Source: Desulfobulbaceae bacterium (lineage in GTDB: Bacteria > Desulfobacterota > Desulfobulbia > Desulfobulbales > Desulfocapsaceae). From it: 35,811 nucleotides of DNA. Position 1 is the stretch's first letter. The number at the start of each line of letters is the position of its first letter. The stretch spans positions 1-35,811 of the forward strand of contig QZLB01000059.1 in NCBI GenBank assembly GCA_004796425.1, given 5' to 3'. Positions 27,365 through 35,167 of this stretch are shown one piece after another. Under the pieces are notes generated by a model that saw only the letters and a list, made by a program, of their open reading frames with translations, did no database searches and had not been told where the DNA came from. A program made the translations under genes and the position numbers.

Positions 27365-28018
27365 CTAGAACGGGGGTGTGGAAGAGAAGACTACCGGTGA
27401 GCCCGAGCGTGGATGCATGAATTTTAAACACGTGGCATGAAGCAGCATCTGGTCCCCATCATTTCCCGTCCCGTAGAGATAATCACCGACGATTGGCGCA
27501 TTCAGACCACGTGGATGGGCAGCGTGAAGCCTGATCTGGTGGGTCCTGCCAGTAAGTGGGGTGAACTCAATTCTGGTGCCGCGACGTTCTCTGGTCAATT
27601 TTCTCCATTTGGTTATGGATTTTTTGCCATGGATCGGGTCATAAATCTGTAACGGTCGGTTATCAGGATCAAGACGGAAGGCGAGTTCAATGGTCCCACT
27701 GCCATCTGTAACGTCACCTTCGATGATTGCTTCATACTGTTTTTCGACCTGTCGGTTTTGAAATTGCTTTGACAGCTCACTATGGGCTGTTTCCGTTCGG
27801 GCCAGGATCATCAACCCGGAGGTGTGCAAATCGAGGCGATGGACAGCAGGTTGTGGCGGTAGATCGGGAAATTGTTTGCGCAACCGATTGACCAGACAAT
27901 CCTGTTTGGTCGGGCCCCGTCCCGGAACAGAGAGCAAACCACCAGGTTTTTCCACTACCAGGAGCGACCTATCCTGATAAATCACTGCAATCGCGGGAGG
28001 TTGGCGAGTCGTATTCAT
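27365..28018 (-). CDS. rluA: RluA-family pseudouridine synthase
   Basis: 217 residues from ATG 28018. Isomerises uridine in 23S rRNA and possibly tRNA, as RluA does. Catalytic D63 is in AVHRLDLHTSG. Other landmarks: VVEKPGGLLSVPGRG, QFQNRQVEKQYEA and TPLTGRTHQIRLHAAH. It has no S4 domain, like short RluA proteins. The start overlaps the stop of the upstream gene (ATGA), so translation is coupled. A longer frame to 28060 is possible but lies within the neighbour. Confidence 0.88.
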   Translation of the reverse strand: MNTTRQPPAIAVIYQDRSLLVVEKPGGLLSVPGRGPTKQDCLVNRLRKQFPDLPPQPAVHRLDLHTSGLMILARTETAHSELSKQFQNRQVEKQYEAIIEGDVTDGSGTIELAFRLDPDNRPLQIYDPIHGKKSITKWRKLTRERRGTRIEFTPLTGRTHQIRLHAAHPRGLNAPIVGDYLYGTGNDGDQMLLHATCLKFMHPRSGSPVVFSSTPPF

Positions 28019-28782
28019 ACTGATGCACCGCAGAGCATATAGCCAAGAATCGGTGCGCACTTGTCAGTGCAGGGTGGATAGCAATAGCCATGTTTTCGGG
28101 TTTCGGATCTGTTCTCCCTGCCAAAGTAAAATTCCACCAGAGAGATTGGTGTCAGTTGCTTTATGGCCGCTTGGTTGAGTAGCTTCGGGGCACAGCAGTC
28201 CCCGGTTCCGGTTGGCATTCCACCCGAGAACTCGTGAAAGACTGATTCGAGTGAAGTGCTGTCACGGTGGAAATTGTGAACCTGGTAGAGTTGGTGAATT
28301 TCCTTCATAAGATGCTGTGAAAGTGTTTTTCTCTTCTGGTGCAGGGTGCGCTGCTTAATAGGGTCATTCTGCTCAGCCAGGTTGGCACCGATTGCTTTGA
28401 TCTCTTTTTCAATGGGGTCATTTAGGGCGTAAAAACAATCGACATCAAAAAGAGGCGGGCACCAGCCGTTAACCTGCCACCTGCCAGCATACTGTCCCGA
28501 AAAGGCATAGAGGTATTCCACCTGATTTTTGGTTGTTCGGCATTTCAGGACACCGAACATTTTACCTCGTTCCTCGCCAAAAAGACGCGCGGTTGCAAGG
28601 GCTTTATCAGAAGCGTCCGGACCAAAAATATCTATGCTTTTCTGCTGCTCCAATCTTTTCAGCAGCAGTTGAGCTTCAGGCAATGCCTCCTCGAAGGGCA
28701 GGGTGTGGTAAGATGCACATCGATTGCAATAGGCACGCCACTCAAGCGGTTTATGAGTTGATATTCTTGATAATAATTCCAT
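28015..28782 (-). CDS. Cys-rich uncharacterised protein coupled to rluA
   Basis: 255 residues if started at ATG 28782; a TTG at 28800 would add six residues and neither has a good ribosome site. Cysteine clusters: CNRC at 19-22, GTGDCCAPKLL, YCYPPCTDKC near the C-terminus. The central part has GKMFGVL and YLYAFSGQYAGRWQVNGWCPPLFD. These segments match, from memory, the N-terminal half of long (about 550-residue) RluA-family proteins of Vibrio and Shewanella, in which this domain is fused to the pseudouridine synthase. Here it is a separate gene overlapping rluA. The role is unknown; a zinc-binding RNA-recognition or substrate-specificity role is a guess. Confidence 0.7.
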   Translation of the reverse strand: MELLSRISTHKPLEWRAYCNRCASYHTLPFEEALPEAQLLLKRLEQQKSIDIFGPDASDKALATARLFGEERGKMFGVLKCRTTKNQVEYLYAFSGQYAGRWQVNGWCPPLFDVDCFYALNDPIEKEIKAIGANLAEQNDPIKQRTLHQKRKTLSQHLMKEIHQLYQVHNFHRDSTSLESVFHEFSGGMPTGTGDCCAPKLLNQAAIKQLTPISLVEFYFGRENRSETRKHGYCYPPCTDKCAPILGYMLCGASV

Positions 28783-28852
28783 GGTTATTACAGTAGACAA
28801 TGGCAGATTGTGAATTGACAGGAACCATAGCGTATTTTGCAGGGGAATACCA

Positions 28853-29830
28853 TTGAAGAGAAAAGCGCCATTTGCGAATTTGCATCCAGATCGTGTCTTG
28901 AATTGTGTGGAGCAGGCGCTGGGACGGGATTTTCAGAATATTTGCAGACCCCATTCCAGCTACATAAACAGGGTTTTCGAAGTTCAGGATCACCAGGGTG
29001 ATTTCTTCGTCGCCAAGTTTTATCGGCCGGGCCGTTGGTCAGAAGCGGCGCTTGTTGAAGAACATGATTTCGTCAACCAATGTGCTGGGCAGGAGATACC
29101 GGTGGTACCATCACTCCAGTTGGCAAATGGCACCTGGATCGAGCGGTATGATGATATGTTTTTCACCCTATCAGCAAAATGCGGTGGGAGGATCGTTGAT
29201 GAGTACACAGAGGAACAGCTCCTTGAGTTGGGACGACTGATTGGTCGAGTCCATCTGGTCGGTCAGTCGGATGGTGCCGCAAACCGACCGGTGATTCATC
29301 CATTACGTAACACCAGTAATCAGATTCGCTTTATCACCGAGCTCAAGATTATTCATCCACAGCTTGAAAAAGAATTCCTCACCATTGCTGAAACAATCAT
29401 AGAAACTATTGCCCCCTGTTTCAATGAGTCAGAATTTATACGAATCCATGGTGATTGCCATATGGCAAATCTGATTCATCGACCCGGGGAATCGTTTTAC
29501 CTGATAGACTTTGATGATATGGCTGTCGGCCCGCCAGTTCAGGATCTTTGGATGCTGCTACCTGGAGAGTTGGATGAATCGGGTTATGAACTGGAGCTTT
29601 TGCTGGAGGGGTATGAGACGTTCAAACCGTTTAACCGTGGTTCGCTCAAACTCATTGAACCGCTTCGCGCCATGCGTTACCTGCACTATATCAGCTGGTG
29701 TGGCTGGCAATATGTTGAGGATGGTCAGACCATGATCAGCGATAGTTTTGGGAGTTATGAATACTGGCAGAAGGAAATTGGTGATCTCAAAGATCAGTTG
29801 AACGTCATTCGTGAGAAAGTAGTGTGCTGA
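28853..29830 (+). CDS. srkA: Stress response kinase A (SrkA/YihE-like)
   Basis: 325 residues versus 328 in E. coli. A Ser/Thr-type kinase of the aminoglycoside phosphotransferase fold, linked to envelope and oxidative stress. Nucleotide Lys K55 in VAKFYRPGRW, catalytic loop HGDCHMANL (H199 to N206, D201) and metal-binding DFDD (219-222) are all present. The start is TTG 28853, with AGGGGAA 5-8 nt upstream; no ATG is placed better. Divergent from the Cys-rich/rluA pair; its stop is 4 bp from the stop of the opposing gene. Confidence 0.9.
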   Translation: MKRKAPFANLHPDRVLNCVEQALGRDFQNICRPHSSYINRVFEVQDHQGDFFVAKFYRPGRWSEAALVEEHDFVNQCAGQEIPVVPSLQLANGTWIERYDDMFFTLSAKCGGRIVDEYTEEQLLELGRLIGRVHLVGQSDGAANRPVIHPLRNTSNQIRFITELKIIHPQLEKEFLTIAETIIETIAPCFNESEFIRIHGDCHMANLIHRPGESFYLIDFDDMAVGPPVQDLWMLLPGELDESGYELELLLEGYETFKPFNRGSLKLIEPLRAMRYLHYISWCGWQYVEDGQTMISDSFGSYEYWQKEIGDLKDQLNVIREKVVC

Positions 29831-29834
29831 ATCC

Positions 29835-30632
29835 TTAATGGAAGAGACGGCCAAGCCTCTGGTAAACTGAAAAATTATGCTTGAGCCCTTGGTTGATGAT
29901 CGGTTTGAAATCGATTGAAAAACGTTTGCTGGCTGAGGATATGACCGCGTTCCGCAAGCGCAAAAGGTGAGGTCTGGTGAGACTGTCACTTGCCAGGCAG
30001 ATGACATTGCCGCGATTGTATACCGGAAACTCGAGCAGACAATTGAAGTCATTCTCCACCAGTGCTCTGATTTCTATCATCTTGTCCTGGTTTCCACTCC
30101 AGAGATTAAAGCTAACCAGTCCGGTATCCACCAAGACTTTTTTCAGTTGACGAAGATAGGACTGATTATAGATATTGGCGGCCATTCCACGATGATCAAA
30201 TGCGTCGATTATTACCAAATCATAGGTTTTGTTGGGATGGGCCCGGATAAAATCATATCCATCGGCACAATGGATCGTTACCTGTGAGTTTTCCGGAAGG
30301 GAAAAATAACCGCGGGCGAGCTCGATAACAAGCTCAGCGTGTTCTACTACATCAATTCGGGAATCAGGGTAATGGTGATGGAGAAAGTGAACCATCGAGC
30401 CTGCGCCGAGTCCCACCATTAATATATTTTGCGGAGCGGGTTTAAAAAGCAGACCGCTCATCATGTACCTGGTGTAGCTTAAATACAGGCGATGTGGCGC
30501 TGAGAGGTCAATAGAAGACTGAAGAACATTACCGCCAAAGTAGAGCGTTCTGGTTTTGCCCTGATCAATAATCTCAACCAGCACACTGTTCCAGTGTCCA
30601 CGATAAACCACTGTTCTTTTTGCTTTGTTCAT
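29835..30632 (-). CDS. Spermidine-synthase-like methyltransferase-fold protein
   Basis: 265 residues. The Rossmann core has VGLGAGSM (motif I, about 73-80), E97 at the end of the second strand in VVEHAELV, CADGYDFI (D124) and IIDAFD (143-146). The DxxD of spermidine synthases is kept, but the following Pro and the Ser/Cys-Thr pair are not, so true aminopropyl transfer is doubtful. Proteins of this type are usually annotated 'spermidine synthase family' and may be methyltransferases. It is not next to a speD gene. Confidence 0.75.
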   Translation of the reverse strand: MNKAKRTVVYRGHWNSVLVEIIDQGKTRTLYFGGNVLQSSIDLSAPHRLYLSYTRYMMSGLLFKPAPQNILMVGLGAGSMVHFLHHHYPDSRIDVVEHAELVIELARGYFSLPENSQVTIHCADGYDFIRAHPNKTYDLVIIDAFDHRGMAANIYNQSYLRQLKKVLVDTGLVSFNLWSGNQDKMIEIRALVENDFNCLLEFPVYNRGNVICLASDSLTRPHLLRLRNAVISSASKRFSIDFKPIINQGLKHNFSVYQRLGRLFH

Positions 30633-30872
30633 AGTTTTGGAGTGTGATAGTTCAGGTTAACACTCATAGTAACGTTGGCTGCAATTATTTCAAAATTATA
30701 ATTTCAGATCTTGATGATCTTTGTTCAAAGTGGTGGATTTTATCGAGAAGATTCGATGTTTTTTTTTAGAAATCAGATTATTGTTTAGATAGAAAATGAC
30801 AATGCTCAACGGTTTTTTAACTCGGCATGTTGTTGGTTTCAGTAGACCGAATGAGAATCATGTAATATCCCA

Positions 30873-31349
30873 ATGACGATGCTCTCAAAGATAATTTCAG
30901 GTGGTCAGACCGGTGTGGACCAGGCTGCCCTTGATGCAGCAATCAGCAGTGAATGTGCTTATGGCGGCTGGTTACCCGCGGGCAGGAAAACTGAGGCAGG
31001 ACCACTCAGCACGAAATATCAGATGGAAGTGATGGGTTCAGCCAACTATGCTGATCGGACGAAAAAGAATGTCCAGGACGCGGATGCGACACTCATTATC
31101 TCTAATGGGCCACTCACCGGCGGCTCTGCCTTGACTGAGAGGATAGCCAGGGATTTGAGTAAGCCGTGTATGCATATTGACTTCACTCAATTTCAAGGAG
31201 ATCACTCATTGAAGCAGGTTGCTTTATGGTTGGCAGCTGAGGATGTTGCAGTACTAAATGTGGCAGGCCCCCGGAGCAGTTCAGACCCAGGGATTTACCA
31301 GCGAGCTCGGTCGTTCATAGAAAAACTTCTTGCTGAGGGAGCTTCATGA
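30873..31349 (+). CDS. YpsA/SLOG-type putative molybdenum carrier protein
   Basis: 158 residues. The start has IISGGQTGVDQAALDAA (about 7-23) and GGWLPAGRKTEAGPL (32-46), signatures of the YpsA/'putative molybdenum carrier' group in the SLOG superfamily, relatives of lysine decarboxylase-like LOG proteins and DprA that bind nucleotide-like ligands. ATLIISNGPLTGGSALT supplies the glycine-rich loop. The molybdenum label comes from weak similarity and is unproven. No ribosome site is evident near the ATGs at 30873 or 30879. Overlaps the next gene as ATGA, so the two are coupled. The 240-bp region upstream is AT-rich; I see no clear promoter in it. Confidence 0.8.
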   Translation: MTMLSKIISGGQTGVDQAALDAAISSECAYGGWLPAGRKTEAGPLSTKYQMEVMGSANYADRTKKNVQDADATLIISNGPLTGGSALTERIARDLSKPCMHIDFTQFQGDHSLKQVALWLAAEDVAVLNVAGPRSSSDPGIYQRARSFIEKLLAEGAS

Positions 31350-32704
31350 TGGGGAAGCAGCAGAAGGTCCCGCGAATCAATCATCAGCAGTGTACAAGAT
31401 GTGGTCTTTGTGTGGAGATTTGTCCAGACCGCGTATTACACCTTGAGGCCGACCTACCTGTCATGTTGCTCGATGAACACTGTATGGGGTGTAACCACTG
31501 TTATGCGGTTTGTCCAGTAAATGCAGTGGTTCTCAGCAACCCGGAATCGATGCTCAGATTCAGGACTTTTGAACGAAAAACACTCCCCACACCTACCAGA
31601 CAGACAGTAACGACCGCAGAGCTCGCCTTACTTATGGAACTGAGACGGTCCTGTCGCAAGTTCAAAGCACAACAGGAGGTAGAGATCTCCGTGCTCTCCG
31701 ATCTGATATCATTAGGTACCACTGCTCCATCTGGTACCAATAACCAGGGCTGGCAGTTTATCATCATTCCAGAGCGAAAGGATGTGATGGCTTTGGGTGA
31801 GGCGACCGCGACCTACTATCGTCAATTAAATAATCGTGCAGCCTCGCCATGGTGGAGGTTTCTGGCCAAACTTTTTGCCAAAGATGGGTTGTCCCACTAT
31901 TATCAGAATTATTATCAAACCATCGAGGAGGGTTTGCGTGTCTGGCAGCAGGATGGCACCGACCGGTTGTTTCATGGTGCCCCGTCTGCCATTGTTGTGG
32001 CTGGTGATATTGAAGCAAGCTGCCCAGCGGAAGATGCCTTACTGGCTACCCAAAACATCTTGCTCGCTGCTGAAACCATGGGCGTGGGGACCTGTCTGAT
32101 TGGTTTTGTCGTGGAAGCGGCACGTCGGGATAAAAGGATCAGAAAACTACTTCGACTGGCGGCAAATGAGCAGATATACAGTGTCATTGCATGTGGCTAT
32201 CCTGCTATCACCTTTCAAAGAGCGGCAGGAAGAGCAAACTATAATCCCCGGGTATTGAGATTGAGTAAAAGTGCTATGAAAAAAGATGATTCAACACAGA
32301 ATGTTGCCAGTGACGGTGAGGAAAAACGGGTAAGCCTGGTGGTTTATTCCTTTGGCTTTAAGCATGGGGTGCCGGTTGATGCGAACATGGTTTGGGATGT
32401 GAGGTTCCTGCCCAACCCCTACTGGCAGGAAGAGCTCAGACCGATGAGCGGCCAGGAGCAGCCGGTGGCAGATTTTGTCATAGAGAGTGAACAGGGACAG
32501 AAGTTTCTGGAGCTATTGAAGCCGATGCTCGAGTTCCTGATAGACAGTAATTCAAAGCTGGAGAAGAAGAATCTACGGTTTGCCGTGGGGTGTACCGGTG
32601 GTCGGCATCGATCGGTGGCAATTGTTGAAGAGATCAAACGATTCCTGACAGAACGTGATGTCGATTTAACCGTGTTCCATCGGGATATGGAGCGGGAGTC
32701 CTGA
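31346..32704 (+). CDS. Ferredoxin-nitroreductase-RapZ C-terminal domain fusion
   Basis: 452 residues in one unbroken frame with three parts. (1) Residues 10-60: two [4Fe-4S] motifs, C16/19/22/26 and C46/49/52/56. (2) Residues 95-300: an FMN nitroreductase domain with RRSCRKF and APSGTNNQGWQF. (3) Residues 328-452: a domain matching the C-terminal half of RapZ (YSFGFKHGVPVD, DVRFLPNPYW, GCTGGRHRSV at 415-424, HRD at 445-447). The linker is hydrophilic (305-327). RapZ's own N-terminal Walker A ATPase domain is missing. In E. coli that C-terminal domain binds glucosamine-6-phosphate and small RNA. The first two parts are a known bacterial architecture; the third is not a combination I know. The gene overlaps the SLOG gene by 4 bp. 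Confidence 0.85.
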   Translation: MMGKQQKVPRINHQQCTRCGLCVEICPDRVLHLEADLPVMLLDEHCMGCNHCYAVCPVNAVVLSNPESMLRFRTFERKTLPTPTRQTVTTAELALLMELRRSCRKFKAQQEVEISVLSDLISLGTTAPSGTNNQGWQFIIIPERKDVMALGEATATYYRQLNNRAASPWWRFLAKLFAKDGLSHYYQNYYQTIEEGLRVWQQDGTDRLFHGAPSAIVVAGDIEASCPAEDALLATQNILLAAETMGVGTCLIGFVVEAARRDKRIRKLLRLAANEQIYSVIACGYPAITFQRAAGRANYNPRVLRLSKSAMKKDDSTQNVASDGEEKRVSLVVYSFGFKHGVPVDANMVWDVRFLPNPYWQEELRPMSGQEQPVADFVIESEQGQKFLELLKPMLEFLIDSNSKLEKKNLRFAVGCTGGRHRSVAIVEEIKRFLTERDVDLTVFHRDMERES

Positions 32705-32716
32705 AAAACAGAGATC

Positions 32717-32998
32717 TCAGTAGGGAAAACGAAGGTGGGATCCGCAGGCGGTGAGCAGTACATAGGAGACCACCATGCAAAGCGTGATGGCCGCCGCGAC
32801 TGCCATGAGCAGGTAAAAAAATACAAAAACAGTTCCCCGCAGGGCCCAAGAGATAAGAAAGCGGGAAATGAGCCATCCCATCCTGAGGATTACCGTCGGA
32901 ACAAAAACCAGAAGAAAGAGAATACGGCGCACGTCCCAGATGTCCTGGAACCCGCTTCCTGGCTGTGGGCGATTTTGTGTGAAGTGAGTCGTATGCAT
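32717..32998 (-). CDS. Small membrane protein, unrecognised
   Basis: 93 residues from ATG 32998 on the minus strand; the frame stays open further upstream to 33103 but that part has no protein-like composition. Two strongly hydrophobic helices (about residues 24-50 and 57-85) follow a polar N-terminus with HTTHFTQNRPQPG. A plausible two-helix membrane protein, but no ribosome site is visible and no family is recognised. A frame on the plus strand (32735-33082) is highly polar and rejected. Confidence 0.45.
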   Translation of the reverse strand: MHTTHFTQNRPQPGSGFQDIWDVRRILFLLVFVPTVILRMGWLISRFLISWALRGTVFVFFYLLMAVAAAITLCMVVSYVLLTACGSHLRFPY

Positions 32999-33190
32999 AG
33001 TAATTTCGTCGGTAACGTTGAATACCCGACTGCAAATCCGAGACCATCTGAGTCCACAAACTCCCCTCGCGTGATGAAATGATAGTGCGATGGCGGCTAT
33101 CACGCTGTAGTTCCGGCCAGGATTTATTCGTTTTGATAGAAAAGGCGCACCCGTACCCGATCTGCAAAAGGCAGGCTGGAGTCATGATCT

Positions 33191-33292
33191 GATGGTTTCG
33201 CTCCATCAACTGTGTGTTTTTTCCCACACTTTGAGATGGGAAATTATTACTCCGCCCCTCGTGTGCAGCGGGTAAAAATTACCCGATACACG
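33191..33292 (+). promoter_or_regulatory. Palindromic upstream activator region of the zraP-like gene
   Basis: A large interrupted palindrome spans 33260-33292: CGGGTAA (33269-33275) pairs with TTACCCG (33279-33285) across three bases, and CGTGT (33260-33264) with ACACG (33288-33292). Its centre (33277) is about 120 bp upstream of the predicted sigma-54 start, the usual place for an enhancer-binding protein. Two smaller inverted repeats (33191-33207 and 33212-33229) precede it. An NtrC-type activator such as ZraR is the expected ligand; none is encoded in the window. Apart from these sites and the promoter, the 32999-33454 gap shows nothing. Confidence 0.6.
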
Positions 33293-33372
33293 ATAGCTCA
33301 CGTCTCCTATTACGTTATGTGGATATTGGAAAGTTCTTTAAATTTTAGGTGTTTGTGTGGTTTTCTTTCGAG

Positions 33373-33388
33373 TGGTACAGGTGTTGCA
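33373..33388 (+). promoter_or_regulatory. Sigma-54 (RpoN) promoter of the zraP-like gene
   Basis: TGGTACAGGTGTTGCA matches the -24/-12 consensus TGGCAC-N5-TTGCA with one mismatch. The invariant GG (33374-33375) and GC (33386-33387) have the required 10-bp gap. Predicted start about 33399, 56 bp before the ATG. E. coli zraP is also sigma-54 dependent. Confidence 0.8.
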
Positions 33389-33454
33389 AATTAAGAAGCA
33401 AAGACCTTACGGGTCACATTCAATTAATGAGTAACCAATACCAGGAGGATAACC

Positions 33455-33925
33455 ATGAAAAAGAAAATAATCGTATCAGCGCTTGTTTTATCACTAATGA
33501 CCGCAGGATTTACCAGTGCTCAGGCTCGCTGGGGAAACCGGGGAGCAAATGTCAATAACTGTCCCTGCGCAACAGGTCAGGTGAGCCAGGTTGACGCGGC
33601 GACTCAGGAAAAACTTGAAGCATTCTACAACGACACGTTGGACATCAGAAAGCAACTCACCATGAAACGGGCTGAAAAGCAGGCACTGCTCCGAAGTGAA
33701 ACCCCTGATCCTGCAGCCATGAGCAAGATTGCCGGTGAGATGTTTGATCTCAGGCAAACTCTGCAACAGAAAGCTCAGGAGGCTGGTGTAGATTCGATCG
33801 CCGGGGCCGGATTCGGTCGGGGACAAGGTTTTGGAAATGGTGATGGAATGGGCGGAGGCCGAAAGGGCAAAGGAGGCGGCCGTCAGATGATGCAAGGTAA
33901 CGGCTATGGTCAGGGCCGTTTCTAG
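33455..33925 (+). CDS. ZraP-like periplasmic protein
   Basis: 156 residues. A signal peptide (1-24, cleavage after SAQA) leads to a periplasmic protein. The core (about 48-110) has the ZraP/CpxP-family helical pattern: YNDTLDIRKQLTMKRAEKQ, then ALLRSETPDPAAMSKIAGEM, as in E. coli ZraP, a zinc-responsive chaperone. The tail (from about 117) is rich in Gly, Arg, Met and Gln. There is no histidine in the whole protein, unlike the metal-binding His of E. coli ZraP; a CPC pair at 36-38 is the only evident metal-ligand candidate. CAGGAGG is 8 nt before the ATG. The gene has its own sigma-54 promoter and palindrome upstream. Confidence 0.8.
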   Translation: MKKKIIVSALVLSLMTAGFTSAQARWGNRGANVNNCPCATGQVSQVDAATQEKLEAFYNDTLDIRKQLTMKRAEKQALLRSETPDPAAMSKIAGEMFDLRQTLQQKAQEAGVDSIAGAGFGRGQGFGNGDGMGGGRKGKGGGRQMMQGNGYGQGRF

Positions 33926-33958
33926 TAATCTGAATTAATCTTTATTTCTTTTCTCTCC

Positions 33959-33980
33959 CGGGGCTCTTTTTAGAGCCCCG
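33959..33980. terminator. Hairpin between convergent zraP-like and AKR genes
   Basis: A perfect 9-bp stem (33959-33967 with 33972-33980) with a TTTT loop lies between the two stops. It lacks a proper T tract on either side, so it is a likely but not certain terminator, possibly serving both strands. Confidence 0.6.
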
Positions 33981-33985
33981 ATCTG

Positions 33986-35167
33986 TTATACCTTTTGCTC
34001 CGAGGCGAATAGTGTGTGAGCCTTGCACAGGAGCTCGGACAGCTTCTCAGGTGTGAGGCCGGAGATTCCCTTCAAGGCAGAAAAATCTGTCCTCTCAGCC
34101 CGGGCCCCATTGTTTCCCGGCACCCATGCAGATCCCCCTGCCAGTTTGTCATAGCGTTCGCGGCTATAGGTTTCAAGCCCCCAGCAGGTGGCAAGGTTAT
34201 AGAGCCAGAGGATCATTCGGATATTAATGTTGCCGGGAGCCTGATCCCATGGTGGCAGCTGGTCCCAGAAATGGTCGGGACGTTCGTAACCACTCCATGC
34301 GCTCATCCTCTGCCTCAATCGTGCATCAATTTCGTCAACCGGACAGGGTTGATCTGCATCGAGATACTGCATCACTTTGAGATGTTCATCAAAGTGATGT
34401 GGCTCTGAGGCACCAAGGCTGATGGTGCAGACACCCGGTTGATTCAGGCAGTACAGATCATTAAAAAGCATGGGTGACAAGGGGCTACAGAGCTCAACCA
34501 TGGTCGATGACGGGGTATGGAGATAGCCGCCCTTGTCCGAAGGGCTGATGATAAAAATACCGATATCGCGTTCCTTGCCATATTCAATGGCTGCCCGGTT
34601 TGCATCAAAAATGTAGTACCAGTGGACATTGGCAAAATCGAAACCGCCATACTCATCAAACTTCATGGCTTCGATGATTACATCGGTGGGGCCGTGGCCG
34701 GAAAAGCCGATGTGGCGCACCTTTCCCTGATCTTGGAGTTTTCGGGCAGCTTCCAGACAACCGCCTTTCCGGCAACTGTACCAGAGCGAACGGTGATCAT
34801 TTATACCGTGCAGGGCCAGGAAATCAAGGGAGTCGGCCTGGAGTCGATCCAGAGAGCGGAGTACCTTGCTGGTGAATAGCTCACTATCCTCGGCAGGAGA
34901 TACCTTGGTCTGCAGATAAAACTGGTCACGTTTAAGCTGTGGCAGGATGGTACCGAGCTGGGCTTCGGAAGATCCATAACCATGGGCCGTCTCGATATGG
35001 TTAATGCCATGGGCAAGGGCTGTCTCAAGAAGGGTTTTGAGGTTGGCGGTGGAGGCGGCGGGGATTGAGTCAAGAGCGATGTCGTCCCAGGAATGCATAC
35101 TTCTCATGCAGCCAAAACTCAGTACTGAGATCTCCACCTCGGTTTTACCGAATCGTCGATATTTCAT
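33986..35167 (-). CDS. Aldo/keto reductase with cysteine-free ferredoxin-like tail
   Basis: 393 residues. Aldo/keto reductase barrel: RFGKTEVEISVLSFGCM at the start, HIETAHGYGSSEAQLG, LQTKVSP and LALHGIND contain the usual Tyr, Lys and His of the catalytic tetrad. The Asp of the tetrad, normally in an 'FDTA..YG' motif, is replaced by Glu (IETAHGYG). The C-terminal 90 residues align in order with the region that in related proteins carries a [4Fe-4S] ferredoxin-like domain (LWLYNLATCWGLETYSRERYD, WVPGN), but its cluster cysteines are absent (WDQLPPWDQAPGNINI). NADPH or another electron donor is therefore likely. Convergent with the zraP-like gene. Confidence 0.82.
   Translation of the reverse strand: MKYRRFGKTEVEISVLSFGCMRSMHSWDDIALDSIPAASTANLKTLLETALAHGINHIETAHGYGSSEAQLGTILPQLKRDQFYLQTKVSPAEDSELFTSKVLRSLDRLQADSLDFLALHGINDHRSLWYSCRKGGCLEAARKLQDQGKVRHIGFSGHGPTDVIIEAMKFDEYGGFDFANVHWYYIFDANRAAIEYGKERDIGIFIISPSDKGGYLHTPSSTMVELCSPLSPMLFNDLYCLNQPGVCTISLGASEPHHFDEHLKVMQYLDADQPCPVDEIDARLRQRMSAWSGYERPDHFWDQLPPWDQAPGNINIRMILWLYNLATCWGLETYSRERYDKLAGGSAWVPGNNGARAERTDFSALKGISGLTPEKLSELLCKAHTLFASEQKV

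Follow-up and report, generated by a model that had tools for sequence, protein, structure and literature searches.

The frame at 31346–32704 (forward strand) is a genuine reading frame that carries an intact RapZ C-terminal domain (RapZ_C) behind a ferredoxin-nitroreductase. In the preferred reading, to which a probability of about 45% is assigned, it arose as a natural, lineage-private fusion of two genes from the conserved string cpYpsA – ferredoxin-nitroreductase – stand-alone RapZ_C, and RapZ_C would be a ligand-binding partner acting on the reductase. More generally, the join appears to expose a conserved partnership in which a truncated RapZ accompanies an electron-transfer enzyme. The coding features concerned, located in the window (the whole analysed stretch of 35,811 nucleotides), are:

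30873–31349, forward strand: cpYpsA (SLOG superfamily) gene, 158 aa (Pfam PF12694, 9.3e-54)
31346–32704, forward strand: fused ORF, 2[4Fe-4S] ferredoxin – nitroreductase – RapZ_C, a single open frame of 452 aa
31373–31528, forward strand: 2[4Fe-4S] ferredoxin domain, residues 10-61 (Pfam Fer4_21/Fer4; two CxxCxxCxxxC motifs)
31643–32200, forward strand: FMN nitroreductase-fold domain, residues 100-285 (Pfam PF00881)
32333–32692, forward strand: RapZ C-terminal domain, residues 330-449 (Pfam PF22740, 6.7e-42; 5o5s, 3.6e-29)
32591–32614, forward strand: CTGGRHRS loop, residues 416-423, the RapZ pocket loop (residue alignment; PMC5737377, PMC9841335)

The original prediction of one unbroken frame with two [4Fe-4S] motifs, a nitroreductase domain and a full RapZ_C is borne out, with Pfam matches to PapZ_C (the RapZ C-terminal domain, 6.7e-42), Nitroreductase (3.1e-26) and the 4Fe-4S dicluster family Fer4_21 (2.7e-10) that all exceed the curated cut-offs. 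The two CxxCxxCxxxC motifs begin at residues 16 and 46, and the solved structures nearest to the RapZ half are those of E. coli RapZ and its isolated C-terminal domain (CTD), with 5o5s matching at 3.6e-29. Both halves, which are separate genes elsewhere, are under purifying selection when compared with relatives; since non-synonymous divergence is low (pN 0.20-0.36) and synonymous divergence saturated (pS 0.75-0.85), the domains of the fused ORF are not a product of chance. The source genome holds a single RapZ_C, that of the fusion, with no second copy in a genome search, and a domain search of the same genome returned no RapZ N-terminal domain, so that the predicted lack of the N-terminal ATPase holds for protein and genome alike. 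The NCBIfam RapZ equivalog model scores the fused protein at 151, below its cut-off of 244, and a scan of the genome's contigs gave one distant nitroreductase and no more. Structure prediction of the fused protein, run without an alignment, gave a mean pLDDT of 34.8 and no usable fold.

Giardia GlNR1 is a ferredoxin-nitroreductase protein. An N-terminal 2[4Fe-4S] ferredoxin followed by an FMN nitroreductase domain is common to the window protein, to GlNR1 (named in PMC6039359 and related papers) and to many bacterial 2[4Fe-4S]-nitroreductases; unlike these, the window protein continues into RapZ_C. A literature search, with most subscription papers outside its scope, retrieved no paper joining RapZ and nitroreductase, nor any on cpYpsA.

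The reductase and RapZ_C as neighbouring genes

The reductase subfamily is found at high similarity in 32 genomes of the family, 30 of which, that of the window included, are assessable for linkage, the reductase of G092 and G093 lying at a contig end. RapZ_C lies downstream of the reductase on the same strand in 30/30 assessable genomes, which span eight genera, usually within about 150 bases; the distance is about 205 in G095, about 264 in G081 and about 684 in G013, where one gene intervenes. The genes flanking the pair differ from genus to genus and the linkage is kept, so conservation is stronger for the pair than for its surroundings. Within the order but outside this family, the neighbours of the reductase vary, with no adjoining RapZ_C in the flanks read, and RapZ_C is also present in family members without this reductase. 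Neither of the two strictly needs the other, therefore, as each occurs without its partner.

Upstream, the stop of cpYpsA overlaps the start of the fused ORF by 4 nt (ATGA at 31346-31349), and the order cpYpsA then reductase is common to several relatives. Other genes recur around the RapZ_C of the family, with varying insertions; in the window they lie within 28853-35167 and comprise an APH-type kinase, a divergent spermidine-synthase-like gene, a Metal_resist (Spy-like) gene and an aldo/keto reductase. Beside them, at 28015-28800 on the reverse strand, is a 261-aa ORF that has several cysteines near its C-terminus and no Pfam match at 0.001. A plasmid comparison gave no match.

A second fused protein was sought among 93 family, 258 order and 395 phylum genomes, and none was found, so the original expectation of homologues with the same fused order was not realised. 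Reductase and RapZ_C are separate, neighbouring, same-strand ORFs in 29 family genomes. In eight of these relatives (G076, G080, G079, G028, G011, G077, G025 and G098) only one stop codon parts two ORFs of the same frame, so that a single substitution would fuse them; G095 and G096 also have both ORFs in one frame, at a clear distance from each other; in the remaining unfused relatives the frames differ. The original prediction had named in advance separate genes in different frames as the case that would speak against a stable fused architecture, and many relatives present it. This refutes an established fused family but does not prove an artefact: the fusion is private to this genome and looks like a one-off merger of neighbouring genes. 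Long open frames in G095 and G096 were considered as further fusions and resolved into two separate ORFs each, and those that surround RapZ_C in G003 and G032 seemed to be uninterrupted frames without coding content.

Another one-off fusion of RapZ_C to an upstream neighbour occurs in the same family, in G012 (L081:2645-3568, contig G012:C39), where cpYpsA is joined in frame to RapZ_C in a protein of 307 aa. It differs from that of the window in its partner, a SLOG protein with no nitroreductase, and in having a strong Shine-Dalgarno (SD) sequence, GGGAGGGG, ahead of an in-frame internal TTG, from which RapZ_C alone may still start. This second event supports the functional proximity of the genes in the string cpYpsA – reductase – RapZ_C.

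The fusion might also be incidental, a stop having been lost between co-transcribed genes so that independent domains are merely tethered. Its single occurrence among the 258 genomes of the order, the frequency in relatives of a shared frame with one stop, and the purifying selection acting on both halves as separate genes elsewhere are all consistent with such an accident. However, the strict linkage of the pair over eight genera suggests a shared task, and we regard an incidental origin as somewhat unlikely.

The RapZ_C pocket and its possible action on the reductase

The window protein is homologous to E. coli RapZ across the whole C-terminal domain PF22740, and the anion/GlcN6P pocket loop CTGGxHRS, K170, R184, H276 and R277 are conserved in it. 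It differs from E. coli RapZ in that the N-terminal kinase-like domain is absent, both from the source genome and from the family, and in being fused to a flavoenzyme. This N-terminal Walker-type domain is needed for the tetramer and for the action of RapZ on RNase E. Its Pfam family (PF03668) was detected in 0/37 family genomes sampled and in 6/21 other genomes of the order; it is missing from the other 15/21, yet many genomes retain RapZ_C. Across the whole phylum the picture differs: the frames holding the best RapZ_C matches mostly run to about 290 residues or more, as a full RapZ would. The RapZ_C of the family is, by all appearances, a remnant or specialised form of RapZ, descended from it by loss of the N-terminal kinase-like half.

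The E. coli CTD dimerises and binds GlcN6P without the rest of the protein (PMC7073468, PMC5737377), and its sulphate/malonate pocket is formed by T248, G249, H252 and R253, with C247 nearby (PMC5737377, PMC9841335). The pocket residues are invariant in the RapZ_C proteins of the family, as are the neighbours C247, K170 and R184 (E. coli numbering), and the C, T, G, G, H, R and S of the CTGGxHRS loop are invariant in 66/66 aligned RapZ_C sequences. The predicted sugar-phosphate/anion pocket has thus been kept, and binding of an anion or phosphosugar by RapZ_C is plausible. The pocket residue H190 is replaced by Tyr in the window, and full-length RapZ proteins of the phylum mostly have Tyr or Phe there. 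The loop at 32591-32614 also fits the CX5R(S) anion-loop pattern as found in Cys-based phosphatases, a resemblance of motif only.

According to the preferred reading, the ferredoxin domain would accept low-potential electrons and supply them to the FMN in the nitroreductase domain, where a small molecule would then be reduced. The RapZ_C dimer would hold an anion or phosphosugar, which in E. coli is GlcN6P, in the conserved CTGGxHRS pocket and would act on the reductase by protein-protein contact, made permanent by the fusion. Nitroreductases form homodimers that bind FMN where the two subunits meet. Because the RapZ CTD is dimeric as well, a fused dimer is sterically reasonable. The strict linkage of the two genes within the family lends some weight to the idea that a metabolite may gate the reductase; against the preferred reading stand the single draft genome, the Tyr at the position of H190, and the occurrence of reductase and RapZ_C without one another. 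A wider proposal, which is speculative and rather unlikely, holds that throughout the order RapZ has often been cut down to a metabolite-binding module without the kinase-like half or RNA, and that one family rewired this module to control a ferredoxin-driven flavin reductase. The supply of envelope precursors (GlcN6P or a related phosphosugar) would then gate electron flow, and the window would hold the hard-wired form.

RapZ_C could instead serve as an enzyme rather than a sensor: its CX5R anion loop, which contains a Cys, would act on a phosphorylated metabolite, and cpYpsA (SLOG), reductase and RapZ_C would form a short metabolic pathway with two steps tethered here. The fit of CTGGRHRS to CX5R(S) and the invariance of its key residues are in line with this, and so are the SLOG neighbour and its fusion to RapZ_C in G012. 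Furthermore, when the E. coli CTD was crystallised with GlcN6P, the authors interpreted the density as probably that of a chemically altered product (PMC9841335). However, the motif match is short, the fold has been described as phosphofructokinase-like (PMC5737377), and catalytic activity of the domain is not reported in the literature cited here; such a role is considered improbable. The family may help to decide between sensor and enzyme as the role of the CTD, the fate of GlcN6P in the pocket having been left open by the structural work (PMC9841335).

The junction between the two halves

At the position of the junction, the reductase gene of homologues ends in a stop and RapZ_C has its own start, accompanied in most of them by a ribosome-binding site. 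The corresponding features of the window are:

32258–32323, forward strand: junction or linker, residues 305-326, which connects the typical end of the reductase (PRVLRL) to the core of RapZ_C
32276–32278, forward strand: in-frame internal ATG, a possible former or weak RapZ_C start (SD pairing -3.0 kcal/mol, at background level)
32310–32322, forward strand: GTGACGGTGAGGA, a possible relic of the RapZ_C ribosome-binding site (pairwise DNA alignment with G002)

The SD pairing of -3.0 kcal/mol at the internal ATG is close to the background median of -2.9; 29 unfused homologues have a median of -7.4, though each of their values is that of the best among several candidate starts, a bias in their favour; a few unfused homologues, such as G025, G098 and G081, also have weak RapZ_C sites. 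With respect to G002, which has the nearest homologue of the RapZ half at 68% identity, the window keeps the stretch GTGACGGTGAGGA resembling the G002 leader, and a 6-base gap replaces the G002 start codon; as this gap rests on one pairwise alignment in a divergent spacer, it counts as moderate evidence. The RapZ half would be expected to lack its SD sequence and start codon after a genuine fusion, as it seems to do here. A frameshift at the A6 run at 32279-32284, after the internal ATG, was also considered: one additional A ends the reductase soon after and leaves RapZ_C without a good start, which is no better fit.

An assembly or sequencing error that joined two separate genes is quite improbable, although the source assembly is a draft of 330 contigs, the fusion is seen in this one genome, and the genes are separate in all relatives. 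The second gene lacks both the ribosome-binding site and the start codon of its intact homologues, and the sequence argues against an artefact because a single-base error would not remove the two together. Moreover, gene order is normal on both flanks of the join.

Basic residues and RNA binding

The original prediction had also allowed a role for the RapZ half in sensing a small RNA and in linking the redox state with RNA metabolism. In E. coli the CTD dimer alone binds GlmY/GlmZ and its pocket touches the RNA backbone (PMC5737377, PMC9841335), and in the window K170, R184 and R196 are kept together with the pocket. However, alanine at K270, K281, R282 and K283 together abolishes RNA binding by E. 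coli RapZ (PMC7073468), and the window has V, R, E and S at these positions, so that the basic RNA-binding tail of the E. coli protein is lost. The net charge of the domain is -5 in the window vs +5 in E. coli, GlmZ was not found in the source genome, and an Rfam search of the whole window gave no match. RNA sensing is not supported, since the basic RNA-binding residues are replaced and GlmZ was not found, and it is very unlikely. RapZ has been studied as a two-domain RNA adapter, and a family in which a half with an intact pocket is linked to an electron-transfer enzyme offers a natural test of the CTD without an RNA role. As a caveat on the argument from the tail, the full-length RapZ proteins of the phylum are tail-less as well.
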